DNA of 64,000 nucleotides, taken from positions 2,281,501 to 2,345,500 of the forward strand of contig NZ_AP019791.1 of assembly GCF_007164525.1 (NCBI RefSeq). The letters run 5' to 3'. The notes below the pieces were generated by a model, which was not told the DNA's origin, searched no databases, and saw nothing but the letters and a program-made list of their open reading frames with translations. The DNA is from Rubrobacter xylanophilus. Its GTDB lineage: Bacteria > Actinomycetota > Rubrobacteria > Rubrobacterales > Rubrobacteraceae. The position numbers and the translations under genes were made by a program. Numbering within the stretch: position 1 is the first letter of the stretch; each line of letters opens with the position of its first letter. Below are positions 49,996-54,291 of this stretch, piece after piece.

Positions 49996-51123
49996 TCAGG
50001 TGCGCGCAGGGTCTCTCATCGGCATGATCAGGTAGCGAAAGTCCGGCTCCTCCTCCCCGTTGGGGACGATGAGCCCGGGCTTTAGCGGCTCGTTGAACTT
50101 GAAGACCACCTTCTCGGTGTCGACCGCGGAGATGCCGTCCAGCAGATAGCCGGGGTTGAAGGAGATCGTAAAGTCGTCCTCGCTGCTGGCCGGTATGCGC
50201 TCGTGGGCCTCGCCGACCTCGCCGCTGCGGACCACGACCTCCACCGAGCCCTCGGAGAAGACGAGGCTCACCGGCACGGGCGGCGTCTGCCGCTGGGCGA
50301 AGAGGTTGACCCGCCGGAGGCTGCCCACGATCTCGTCGCGATCCACGGAGATCTCACGCTCAAAGCTCGCCGGGATGAGCCTGCCGTACTCGGGGAAGTT
50401 CCCTGCTATGAGCCTGGTCCCGAGCAGCACGTCTCCTATGCGGAACAAGGCCTGACTCTCGGAGAGCTGCACCTCTATCCGTTCCTCGTCGGAGCCCGAG
50501 AAGATCCTCCCGACCTCCTGCATCGCCCGGGCCGGGATTATGGCCTCCCGCTTGCCCTCGAAGGTGGTGGCGAGCTCGGTCTCCTTTATGCTGAGCCGGT
50601 AGGAATCGGTGGTGACCATCCTGAGCCGGGAGTCCTCGAAGCTTATGAGGATGCCCGTGAGTACGGGACGCGTCTCGTCCCGCGAGTAGGACCTGGAGAC
50701 CTTCTCCACGGTCTCCACGAGCGCCTCGCCGGAGACTTTAAAGGATCCCTCCGCGGAGAACTCCGGCAAAGCCGGAAATTCCTCCGCAGCGTAAGCCCGA
50801 ATCCGATACTCGTTCTCCCGGGAGCGGAGCACCGCAACGCCTTCCCCGACGTCGTGCTCCAGCACCAGCATCCCATCCGGCAGCGAACGCACCACATCAT
50901 TGAAGATGCGCGCGGGTATCACCAAACGTCCCGGTTCCTCAACCTCCGCCGGCGAACGGGTCCGGATGGAGAGCTCCATGTCCGTCGCCGAAAGCTCCAA
51001 CCTCTCCCCCCGAGCCTCCACCAGAACCCCGCTCAGCACCTGCTGCGGAGACCTGGTGGCCACCCCACGCGATACCAGACCGAGTTTTCCTCCGAGAACA
51101 CCGATGTTGCAAACGGCCCTCAC
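49996..51123 (-). CDS. dnaN: DNA polymerase III beta sliding clamp
   Basis: 375 residues, full length, with three clamp domains. Signatures are the central YRLSIKETEL and SYSRDETRPVLTGILIS and the C-terminal YLIMPMR. It forms the ring that tethers polymerase III. The GTG start at 51123 follows GGAGGT. Its upstream region is the AT-rich end of oriC, so its transcription passes out of the origin. Confidence 0.96.
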   Translation of the reverse strand: MRAVCNIGVLGGKLGLVSRGVATRSPQQVLSGVLVEARGERLELSATDMELSIRTRSPAEVEEPGRLVIPARIFNDVVRSLPDGMLVLEHDVGEGVAVLRSRENEYRIRAYAAEEFPALPEFSAEGSFKVSGEALVETVEKVSRSYSRDETRPVLTGILISFEDSRLRMVTTDSYRLSIKETELATTFEGKREAIIPARAMQEVGRIFSGSDEERIEVQLSESQALFRIGDVLLGTRLIAGNFPEYGRLIPASFEREISVDRDEIVGSLRRVNLFAQRQTPPVPVSLVFSEGSVEVVVRSGEVGEAHERIPASSEDDFTISFNPGYLLDGISAVDTEKVVFKFNEPLKPGLIVPNGEEEPDFRYLIMPMRDPART

Positions 51124-51621
51124 GCTACCTCCACTTCGAGCTTATTATTATTCTCCATACATATATCTATTGGATTAATAATAATAATAAGGGCTGTGGA
51201 TATGTGGATAACCTCCTGATTTCCCCTTATCCAAGCCAAAAACTCCCAGCAATCCCTGTGGATAAAGTTGTGGATAACCCTCGTCTTTTTGTGGATAACC
51301 TGTGGATAAATCCACCACTTATCCACAGGTCCAGGCTGTCCACAAAATTATCCACAGACTTATCCACAGATCTTACCCCTCTTGTCCACAGCTTTATCCA
51401 CAGGTTATCTACAATAGTATGCTTGTTTCCGGGTAGGTGTCGCAGATTTATCCACAAATCGGGTCGTTTATCCACAATTTCTGTGGATAAGTCGCAGGTT
51501 CTGTGGATGGATATTTGCGGGTTATCCACAGGTAGGACGACGCCTGTGGATAACGTGTGGATAGATCTTGGCTCTGGAGGGGGGATCGGTGTTACAATCT
51601 CCCTCCCCTGAGGGCAGGGGG
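51124..51621. other. oriC: oriC: DnaA-box array with AT-rich element
   Basis: This 498-bp gap between dnaN and dnaA holds 14 exact TTATCCACA boxes in both orientations, at 51203, 51257, 51269, 51290, 51301, 51319, 51348, 51360, 51394, 51448, 51468, 51482, 51532 and 51545. About six one- or two-mismatch boxes are also present (for example 51195, 51382, 51405, 51556). The dnaN-proximal end (51136-51191) is A/T-rich with TTA/TAA triplet runs and is the likely unwinding element. No open reading frame here has coding character. Confidence 0.97.
51141..51191. repeat. AT-rich perfect inverted repeat in the unwinding element
   Basis: CTTATTATTATT (51141-51152) and AATAATAATAAG (51180-51191) are perfect 12-bp inverted arms around a 27-nt AT-rich loop. 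The right arm ends 4 bp before the first DnaA-box-like sequence. It also overlaps the 5' leader of dnaN. Confidence 0.9.
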
Positions 51622-52974
51622 TCATCGCTTGCTTTTTATATGGTAGGTGATCTCATGTATCTGGTTGAAGGTATCGCGGTCGCTGTTTATGAGGTTTGCG
51701 ATCTTATTGGTGGCGTGCATCACGGTGGAGTGATCTCGGCCGCCGAAGGCCTTGCCGATTTTGGGCAGTGACTCGTCGGTGAGTTCGCGGGAGAGGTACA
51801 TGGCCACCTGCCGGGGGTAGGCGAAGGCCTTGGACCTGCTGGTGCCCACGAGATCTTCCTTAGAGATACCGAAGTACCGGCAGACTTCGTGCTGGATGAG
51901 CTCGATTGGGATCTCACGGTAGTCCGAGTCGGGGAGGATGTCGCGCAGGACCTCCTCGGCGAGCGCCACGGTGACCTGTCTGCCGTAGAGCGAGGCGTAG
52001 GCCAGGATGCGCACCAGAGCCCCTTCCAGCTCACGGATGTTGGTTGAGACCTTGGAGGCGATAAAGGTGAGGACCTCGTCGTCGACCTCGAGCTGGTCCA
52101 TCATGGCCTTTTTGCGGAGTATGGCGATCCGGGTCTCCAGGTCGGGGGGTTGTATGTCGGTGACCAGGCCCCACTCGAAGCGGCTGACGAGCCGGTTCTC
52201 GAGGGTCTGGAGGTACTTGGGGTGCCGGTCGGAGGCTATGACGATCTGTTTGTTCTCCTCGTAGAGGGCGTTGAAGGTGTGGAAGAAGGCCTCCTGGGTC
52301 TCCACTTTGTTCTCGAGGAATTGGATGTCGTCTATGAGCAGGACGTCGTTTTCTCGATACCGCTTCTGGAACTCCAGCGGGGCGTTATCCCGCATGGAGT
52401 TGATGAAGTCGTTGGTGAACTGCTCGCAGGTGACATAGCGGACCTTCATGGTGGGGTCTTGGTCCTCCACGTAATGTCCCACGGCCCGCAAAAGGTGCGT
52501 CTTGCCGAGGCCGACCCCCCCGTAGATGAAGAGTGGGTTGTAGACCACGCCGGGATTTTCGGCCACGGCGAGCGCTGCGGCGTGGGCGAAGCGGTTGCCG
52601 GCGCCTATAACGAAGGAGTCGAAGGTGTATTTGGCCTTGAGCGAGCGGGGAATCCGGGCACCGAGTACCGACTCGGCCCCCGCCTCCCCGCTGTCGCCCT
52701 CCGTAGGGGGGGGCTCTACCCGCCCGCCCACGCTCACGATTATCGAGGTTTCCCCCTGGCCCAGGATGCCGTCGAGGGCTTCCTCCAGAAGCGGTCGGAA
52801 GCGGCTCTCGATGTACTCCTTGGCGAAAGTGTTGGGGACGGAGATCTCGAGCCCGTCTTCGTAGAGCCTCACGGGCCGGGTTCCCTCGAACCAGACCTTC
52901 AGCGAAGGAGCATTTATGTGCTCCGAGACGCGATCGAGTACCTCATTCCAGACCTCTTCTGCTCTGCTCTGCAT
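51622..52974 (-). CDS. dnaA: Chromosomal replication initiator DnaA
   Basis: 450 residues. Domain I (about 1-85) binds partners. The AAA+ core has Walker A GGVGLGKTHLL, Walker B LLIDDIQFL and the YVTCEQFTNDFI initiator-specific region. Domain IV ends with the box-recognition motif GGRDHSTVMHA. The start lies 6 bp after the stop of the GHKL-HTH gene, so dnaA is probably transcribed with it. DnaA boxes flank dnaA at both ends of this two-gene unit, which would allow autoregulation. Confidence 0.97.
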   Translation of the reverse strand: MQSRAEEVWNEVLDRVSEHINAPSLKVWFEGTRPVRLYEDGLEISVPNTFAKEYIESRFRPLLEEALDGILGQGETSIIVSVGGRVEPPPTEGDSGEAGAESVLGARIPRSLKAKYTFDSFVIGAGNRFAHAAALAVAENPGVVYNPLFIYGGVGLGKTHLLRAVGHYVEDQDPTMKVRYVTCEQFTNDFINSMRDNAPLEFQKRYRENDVLLIDDIQFLENKVETQEAFFHTFNALYEENKQIVIASDRHPKYLQTLENRLVSRFEWGLVTDIQPPDLETRIAILRKKAMMDQLEVDDEVLTFIASKVSTNIRELEGALVRILAYASLYGRQVTVALAEEVLRDILPDSDYREIPIELIQHEVCRYFGISKEDLVGTSRSKAFAYPRQVAMYLSRELTDESLPKIGKAFGGRDHSTVMHATNKIANLINSDRDTFNQIHEITYHIKSKR

Positions 52975-52980
52975 ACAGGA

Positions 52981-53787
52981 TCACTTCACCCAGGTGTCTA
53001 TGAGCGCCTCCACGTAGTCTCTGCCGAGCGGTGAGATCAGGCGCTTCCCCGACTCGTCGCTGACGACCAGCCCGTTCTCCTCCAGAGAGAGGAGATCCCG
53101 GTAGGCGGTGCTGACGCTTATCTCCAGCATCTCGGCCACGGTGGACGGCCCGACCTCCCCACACTCCAGAACGGTTACGAGAACTCGCTGCTGCCGCTCG
53201 GAGATGTCGAGCCGGGGAACACCGTCCGGATAGCGCTTCCCGACCCTCCCCTCTCCCCCACTCCTCGTCGCCGCGTTCTCGTCGGCGTCTTTGCGACTCG
53301 TGGCGGCGATGGTGACGACCGTGCCTCCGCCCAGGTTGTCCTCGACGGTGATCGTCCCCCCCCTCTTCTCCGCGGCGGCCCGCGCTATCCCGAGCCCGGC
53401 CCCGATACCTCGTATCTCGCTCAACGTTTCTGGCGTAGCCCCGGAAAACCCGAACTCCAGCGCCCGGCGCTTGTCCGCTATCCCCGGGCCCCTGTCGGAG
53501 ACCCTCACCTTGTTTCCTCCCTCCAGAACGGAGACGACCACGCCGCGGTACCCGGCATGGATCAGGTTCTCGATGACCTCCCTCACCGCCTCTTCCGGAA
53601 CCCCTCCCCGGCTCTCCCTGACTTTCTCCATGACGAACCGGGTGAACTTGACAGTCGCCGAGCGTGGGTTGGAGGCCGAGATCTCAGTAATCTCCGGTTC
53701 TCCCTCTTCGGGATAGACGGCAACCCGGACGGAAATCTCCGCCCGATCCCTCCCGGCGCTTGTCCTCTGCGGATGGATCATCCCCAC
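52981..53787 (-). CDS. GHKL ATPase-winged helix protein upstream of dnaA
   Basis: 268 residues. Residues about 35-165 form a histidine-kinase-like ATPase domain with an N-box EVIENLIHAGYRG, G1 box SDRGPGIAD and G2 box GIGAGLGIARAAAEKRGG. There is no phospho-acceptor His domain. After a polar linker, residues about 193-266 form a winged helix (RQQRVLVTVLECGEVGPSTV, then STAYRDLLSLEENGLV). It thus looks like an ATP-dependent DNA-binding regulator. It lies between two DnaA-box clusters and 6 bp upstream of dnaA, so a role in replication control is plausible but unproven. Confidence 0.75.
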   Translation of the reverse strand: MGMIHPQRTSAGRDRAEISVRVAVYPEEGEPEITEISASNPRSATVKFTRFVMEKVRESRGGVPEEAVREVIENLIHAGYRGVVVSVLEGGNKVRVSDRGPGIADKRRALEFGFSGATPETLSEIRGIGAGLGIARAAAEKRGGTITVEDNLGGGTVVTIAATSRKDADENAATRSGGEGRVGKRYPDGVPRLDISERQQRVLVTVLECGEVGPSTVAEMLEISVSTAYRDLLSLEENGLVVSDESGKRLISPLGRDYVEALIDTWVK

Positions 53788-54156
53788 TAGAAATCTAACG
53801 CACCCCAGCTACAGACGCCAGATCCATAGAGACGAAATACCGCTTTTGCAGGATATTTATAATTTTATCCACAGTTTTATCCACAAGCTGTGGATAAAAA
53901 CGTTGTTAGCTCGGGTGATATGGCTTCTATAATCCGGGTACGCTGTGCGTGCGGGGTGCGGGAGTGGGGTACTGGATGTTGGTTTTGCAGCTATTTCCCT
54001 GATGAACAGACTTTGAGGTGGCGTCAGTAAGTGGTCCGGAGACGAACCGTTTTGGGCGCTGGATGGAGGGTCGGGGGTTGGATATACTCTTCTGGCTATC
54101 ATCCGGAAGGATGAGCGACGCCCTGGACGCAAGACCGACCGAAGAGGAGCGACCGT
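53788..54156. other. Second origin-side intergenic region: three DnaA boxes and rpmH leader
   Basis: Three exact DnaA boxes at 53865-53873, 53877-53885 and 53889-53897 sit beside an AT-rich stretch (53854-53866). The last two are inverted with a 3-bp spacer. A TATAAT at 53928-53933 and a TATACT at 54083-54088 are candidate -10 boxes for the rpmH operon. No gene is seen. With the main array this gives a two-part origin around dnaA, as in Bacillus. Confidence 0.85.
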
Positions 54157-54291
54157 ATGAAGCGCACCTATCAGCCGAATCGCAGGAAGAGGGCGAAGAC
54201 CCACGGTTTTCGCAAGAGAATGAGCTCCGTGGGAGGACGCAGGATCATAGCTGCTCGCCGCAGACGCGGGCGCAAGCGTCTGGCCGTTTGA
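54157..54291 (+). CDS. rpmH: 50S ribosomal protein L34
   Basis: 44 residues starting [20 protein letters not shown] and ending GRKRLAV, the full bL34 sequence pattern. GAGGAG lies 8 nt before the ATG. It heads the conserved rpmH-rnpA-yidD-yidC-jag order and is 4 bp before rnpA. Confidence 0.97.

Follow-up and report, generated by a model that had tools for sequence, protein, structure and literature searches.

Organization of the locus

The window, i.e., the whole stretch of 64,000 nucleotides that was analyzed, covers the replication origin of a Rubrobacter-like actinobacterium, whose genome consists of one contig of 3.02 Mb. DnaA boxes number 27 in the window versus 2.66 expected, and the GC skew switches at ~54 kb. 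The minus strand carries, in this order, a gene for a protein with a GHKL ATPase domain and a winged helix (wHTH), dnaA, dnaN, a small S4-like ORF and recF, and the opposite strand carries rpmH, rnpA, yidC, jag, rsmG, parA, and parB; except for dnaA, these neighbors are named after the families to which we take them to belong. The relevant features are as follows.

49996..51123, minus strand: dnaN
51195..51564, no strand: main DnaA-box cluster, dnaA/dnaN intergenic region, 14 exact and 4 one-mismatch boxes (box scan)
51622..52974, minus strand: dnaA, 6 bp 3' of the GHKL-wHTH gene
52981..53787, minus strand: gene for the GHKL ATPase - linker - wHTH protein (ORF call and Pfam)
53793..53821, minus strand: pair of promoter-like elements (CTGGCG - 17 bp - TTAGAT) 5' of the GHKL-wHTH gene, conserved in the 22-locus alignment
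53834..53859, minus strand: proximal copy (copy 2) of the CTGCAAA box, at 48 bp from the DnaA triad in 22/22 aligned loci
53865..53897, no strand: three exact DnaA boxes (triad) between both CTGCAAA boxes (box scan)
53973..53998, minus strand: distal copy (copy 1) of the CTGCAAA box, separated from copy 2 by 139 bp
54157..54291, plus strand: rpmH, divergent, other edge of the regulatory interval

The GHKL-wHTH gene is flanked by a 3-box DnaA cluster on one side and an 18-box cluster on the other, which, together with the 6-bp gap to dnaA, matches the arrangement that an earlier note had described from the sequence. The gene and dnaA probably belong to the same operon. A strict sigma-70 scan of the promoter region upstream of the GHKL-wHTH gene gave no match.

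Domain architecture and conservation of the protein

The protein comprises 268 amino acids if translated from GTG, or 266 if translation begins at the ATG at 53781, the start that relatives share. The GHKL domain occupies residues ~14-160 and is followed by a linker (160-190) and the wHTH (190-266). The same note had read this ORF as a GHKL ATPase fused to a winged helix, and both parts were matched above the curated cut-offs of Pfam, namely HATPase_c (PF02518, E 1.1e-12) and the TrmB-type wHTH (PF01978, E 4.1e-9, 36.6 bits vs. a cut-off of 25.6). In a domain survey of 27 orthologues, PF02518 was found in all 27 and PF01978 in 22, and the NifL model matched four of them. The HATPase_c_2 model reached 15.5 bits, below its cut-off of 27.4, and none of the NCBIfam matches listed exceeded the cut-off. 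No receiver domain was matched in the window protein or in the 27 orthologues, nor was an N-terminal AlbA_2 domain matched by Pfam in the protein, which begins ~14 residues ahead of the GHKL domain. Profile searches of the 27 orthologues detected no HisKA/DHp domain in any of them, and the sole near-invariant histidine over 131 aligned rows is H75, located in the ATP-binding N-box; the view that this is not a normal sensor kinase is therefore upheld.

In the 131-row alignment, about ten rows of which repeat a genome, the ATP site is almost completely conserved: D96, G98, G100, G125, G127, G129, and G142 occur in 131/131 rows, and E68, N72, and H75 in 130/131, the sole miss being a fragment. 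In the recognition helix and wing of the wHTH, R228 and R247 were each found in 127 rows and T225 in 124. Between the window protein and that of a congener, the differences at the first, second, and third codon positions number 33, 23, and 91; the linker is just 39% identical, whereas the wHTH is 95% identical with no second-position change in 78 codons and is the best-conserved part, above the GHKL domain. These patterns support strong constraint on the ATP site as well as on the DNA-binding domain. The length of the linker ranges from 9 to 207 residues across the orthologues (median 25). In the Coriobacteriia-type loci L170, L171, L177, and L033, it is long and of low complexity, with many Pro, Gln, Gly, and Tyr residues, and the recognition helix and wHTH of these four proteins are diverged.

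Structure prediction gave a pLDDT of 79 for the full protein and a pLDDT of 89.5 with a pTM of 0.86 for the GHKL domain alone with 79 sequences. Among the matches listed, the fold closest to the GHKL domain was DIP2311 (3lmm_C; Z 14.2, rmsd 3.1, 152 residues aligned, 13% identity) and the second-best was SpoIIAB (1til; Z 12.0, rmsd 3.1, 128 aligned, 23% identity); the kinase catalytic domain of CpxA was matched with Z 11.7 (rmsd 2.6, 116 aligned). The wHTH is predicted to adopt a MarR/TrmB-like fold, as indicated by matches to Escherichia coli MarR (Z 13.7, rmsd 1.8, 77 aligned) and to the plasmid centromere-binding protein AspA (4rs8_A; Z 12.2, rmsd 1.4, 73 aligned).

Distribution and linkage to dnaA

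An orthologue was found in 28 of the 36 Rubrobacteraceae genomes searched. The other eight are not counter-examples, because an intact dnaA start is also missing from those assemblies. In the first 30 loci, dnaA is directly next to the gene in 26, and the gene in the other four (L038-L041) lies at the chromosome end with dnaA at the first bases of the chromosome. By a wider scan of contigs, a relative was found to be encoded in 280 stretches; dnaA adjoins the gene in 78 of the best 80 of these 280 loci, and the two exceptions, both of which stop where a contig ends, are L070, a complete R. marinus record whose counterpart record begins with dnaA, and L112. Among 20 loci from families with weaker or partial matches, dnaA was next in 17, and in the remaining three the gene lies at the end of a contig that begins with dnaA. 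It was also next in 30/30 loci from Bacillota and Armatimonadota, about nine of which are genomes counted before. The earlier note had proposed conservation beside dnaA in relatives as a check on its reading, to be refuted if the gene were not so linked; with linkage in 78 of 80 named loci, the reading passes this check, and the linkage is much stronger than was claimed and far wider than the sequence alone could show.

Overall, the orthologue is located directly upstream of dnaA throughout Rubrobacteraceae and in other classes of Actinomycetota, in Armatimonadota, and in Bacillota. In terms of presence at E 1e-15, it occurs in 157/396 genomes of Actinomycetota, 38/43 of Armatimonadota, and 26/249 of Bacillota, linkage having been checked in the four sets of loci above. 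There is one match per genome except in G267, G384, and G483, each with two matches; those of G483, on one contig, look like pieces of a single gene.

One tree was built for 78 orthologues and another for the DnaA proteins encoded at these 78 loci, by a quick method and with several long branches; over six taxonomic groups they required 6 and 5 group changes, respectively, with a minimum of 5. Because both trees keep nearly the same groups, the gene and dnaA have largely shared their descent over a very long period, and the spread of the gene is not explained by recent transfer. The DnaA proteins of L170, L178, and L208 sit on exceptionally long branches, each of at least 4 changes per column.

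Conserved boxes upstream of the operon

When the intervals between rpmH and the gene were aligned for 22 Rubrobacteraceae, two copies of a box with the consensus gaAAanncCTGCAAAacngnnTTTt were revealed, the other conserved parts being promoter elements and the DnaA triad. Both CTGCAAA-type boxes are present in 22/22 aligned loci and flank the triad, and this phased pair in the Rubrobacteraceae is a new finding. The boxes have no strong palindromy, and they were not found in the DnaA-box cluster between dnaA and dnaN.

The distance from the proximal box to the triad is constant in the aligned loci, as listed above, and is 47 bp in L161; the distal box is located on the far side at 80-81, 90-91, 100-101, or 110-112 bp from the triad. 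The box-to-box distances in 28 genomes fall into five groups, 127-129 (5 genomes), 138-139 (2), 148-149 (4), 157-160 (16), and 170 bp (1), which are ~10.5 bp apart with no values between them. The 12 distinct spacings have a mean resultant length of 0.86 at a period near 10.4 bp, and 0/50,000 random draws from the same range were as periodic; this test takes the distances as independent, and relatedness is allowed for only in the count of changes in the number of turns between the boxes, of which there were at least seven on the tree. A control distance, from the rpmH -10 element to the distal box, was less periodic (0.62-0.68, distinct values). For L017 the aligned copy at 159 bp was used and an additional match at 93 bp was dropped, the spacing of L026 was taken from the alignment, those of L025 and G005 were read by hand, and G007 (158 bp), in whose assembly the protein gene is missing, was left out of the test.

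Such helically phased spacing points to a looped protein complex at the promoter. On the simplest reading, a protein on the distal box would have to face the proximal complex, either in a loop or in a stacked assembly. A regulator site would be expected to show conserved, phased boxes other than those of DnaA, and its placement in 53788-54156 thus appears to be supported indirectly.

The natural candidate for the binding of these boxes would be the operon's own wHTH protein. A matrix was built from 36 Rubrobacteraceae sites and compared with Markov-generated sequence, repeated genomes being dropped from two groups. Two results favor the operon's own protein: the matrix gave z 5.1 in Bacillota (GAAAACCTCTGCTAATATGG type) and z 4.7 in Coriobacteriia-type intergenic regions, both values being inflated by the relatedness of the loci, and the boxes scored no better than chance in six Actinomycetota loci that lack the gene. 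Two others speak against it. For Armatimonadota (z -0.2) and for other Actinomycetota (z -0.5), both of which bear the gene and have much the same recognition helix, the matrix did no better than chance. In addition, the box in its short form, AAWNNSCTGCAAA, has 12 matches in the genome, 2 at the origin and 10 elsewhere, versus 0 for the reversed control; the ten outside the origin possibly reflect a wider regulon or codon bias. Searches by 8-mers and by expectation-maximisation returned mostly promoter elements and lineage-specific motifs, and found no operator common to all lineages. In Coriobacteriia-type loci (L083-L137), TTGAAAA was observed at 92-94 and/or 125-127 bp from DnaA-box-like sites, a fixed distance that hardly varies and is kept in all 21 of the loci holding the element, of 25 listed.

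Proposed function and alternative explanations

The link between replication initiation and the growth or energy state of the cell is open outside a few models. The best explanation of the locus, as yet unproven, is that the GHKL-wHTH protein regulates dnaA, and the interpretation given in the earlier note is partly supported. In the form that we consider somewhat better than evenly probable, the protein would be nucleotide-responsive, would bind DNA, and would regulate its own operon, including dnaA. Binding of ATP or ADP by the GHKL domain, suggested by the intact ATP site, would set the dimerisation or the domain arrangement of the protein, and the wHTH domains would bind the distal and proximal CTGCAAA boxes. 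Once occupied on the same helix face, the boxes would enclose a loop of ~12-16 turns over the fixed DnaA-box triad. This loop, either competing or cooperating with DnaA, would determine how strongly the operon is transcribed, with either sign of regulation being conceivable, and the supply of DnaA, perhaps also the origin itself, would thereby be coupled to the adenine-nucleotide state.

A protein-level switch was considered as well, in which the target of the GHKL domain, by binding or phosphorylation in the manner of SpoIIAB, is DnaA or some other initiation protein, and the wHTH serves as an origin dock only. It would fit the steady linkage with dnaA and not with a regulon, the agreement of the gene tree with the DnaA tree, the nearness of the GHKL fold to SpoIIAB (1til, Z 12.0), and the conserved E68 four residues ahead of N72, which we take to be the layout known for SpoIIAB. 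However, the locus has no sigma or anti-anti-sigma gene, the wHTH is conserved above the GHKL domain between congeners, and the phased promoter boxes ask for a DNA-bound role, so that we regard such a switch as unlikely. The position of the gene between both DnaA-box clusters would also suit a structural protein whose wHTH organises, tethers, or handcuffs the origin and which is no transcription regulator; the fold match to centromere-binding AspA (4rs8_A, Z 12.2) agrees with this, as do the GHKL clamps known in other DNA proteins and a MutL match in the N-box region. Nevertheless, the wHTH matches are unspecific, many MarR proteins scoring above AspA, and the boxes lie directly upstream of the promoter-like site of the operon, with none found in the cluster between dnaA and dnaN, which makes this role quite improbable in our estimate.

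We give little credence to the boxes serving another regulator, such as a nucleoid protein or global factor, with the GHKL-wHTH protein regulating something else and its adjacency to dnaA reflecting conserved origin gene order only. Gene order at origins is indeed conserved in general and the boxes are lineage-specific, but the gene holds its place over three phyla, and the six Actinomycetota loci that lack it score no better than chance for the boxes. Regulation of the operon by its own GHKL-wHTH protein is the preferred reading. A bolder version of it, offered tentatively and with more doubt than confidence, would make the protein an ancestral direct sensor of energy charge: the GHKL domain would read ATP/ADP and the wHTH would write it into DNA, with no phosphorelay, by closing a helically phased loop across the DnaA boxes that sets the supply of DnaA. 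Such a sensor would predate the divergence of Actinomycetota, Armatimonadota, and some lineages of Bacillota; it would have stayed beside dnaA in these and would have been lost or replaced in other bacteria.

Since the same neighbor precedes dnaA in three phyla, it is probably an overlooked replication control protein, and this candidate regulator may combine a sensor and a DNA-binding part in one small protein. The gene is open to study because it is present in cultured genera such as Rubrobacter, and the geometry of the promoter is testable by simple changes of spacing.

Comparison with known systems

A GHKL domain and a wHTH in one small protein beside dnaA were not found described in the openly accessible journal literature that was searched; the earlier note knew of no counterpart, and the paper and family searches agree with it within their limits. 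The available text of the genome paper on Fimbriimonas considers how rpmH and dnaA are ordered and mentions no such gene, and that of the R. radiotolerans paper sets the origin at dnaA with nothing more on it (PMC4072686/PMC4148983).

Several known families share one part or another of the protein. DIP2311 of Corynebacterium diphtheriae (PDB 3lmm) has the GHKL fold in common with it at 13% identity, and presumably also carries a winged helix after the GHKL-like domain, in what we take to be a much longer chain with an extra N-terminal AlbA_2 domain; we know of no position of DIP2311 beside dnaA. SpoIIAB and RsbW are likewise GHKL proteins without a DHp domain, but they are single-domain proteins without the DNA-binding domain that the window protein has. 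Their genes are encoded with sigma and anti-anti-sigma partners, whereas the neighbors here are rpmH and dnaA. A plain anti-sigma factor was rejected, the HATPase_c_2 score being below the cut-off and no partner gene being nearby. Sensor histidine kinases have HATPase_c with the N, G1, and G2 boxes in common with the protein, and were rejected in view of the missing HisKA/DHp domain and conserved acceptor histidine. Membership of the MutL/GyrB/Hsp90 GHL ATPases was also rejected: the transducer (S5-like) domain after the ATPase is absent, and the linker and wHTH are found in its place. The winged helices of TrmB and MarR share the fold and the Pfam match, and none is fused to a GHKL domain among the matches listed; in proteins of this type, other domains sense sugars or small ligands. 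Regulators of the CtrA, MtrA, and WalR kind have a response-regulator receiver domain, in contrast to the window protein.

According to the available text on each, two systems come closest to the proposed mode of action. In NifL of Azotobacter, a GHKL domain binds ATP/ADP without hydrolysis of ATP and regulates transcription (PMC9866876). NifL differs in working through protein contact with the activator NifA, in having PAS domains, and in lacking a DNA-binding domain of its own. In Staphylococcus aureus, the regulator of the WalKR system binds at several sites in the interval from rpmH to dnaA and sets the expression of dnaA (PMC10746227). WalKR, however, is a two-component system with a response regulator and a general regulon, and is not a dnaA neighbor of GHKL-wHTH architecture. 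The protein described here may combine NifL-like reading of ATP/ADP, without a phosphorelay, with WalR-like action in the rpmH-dnaA interval.
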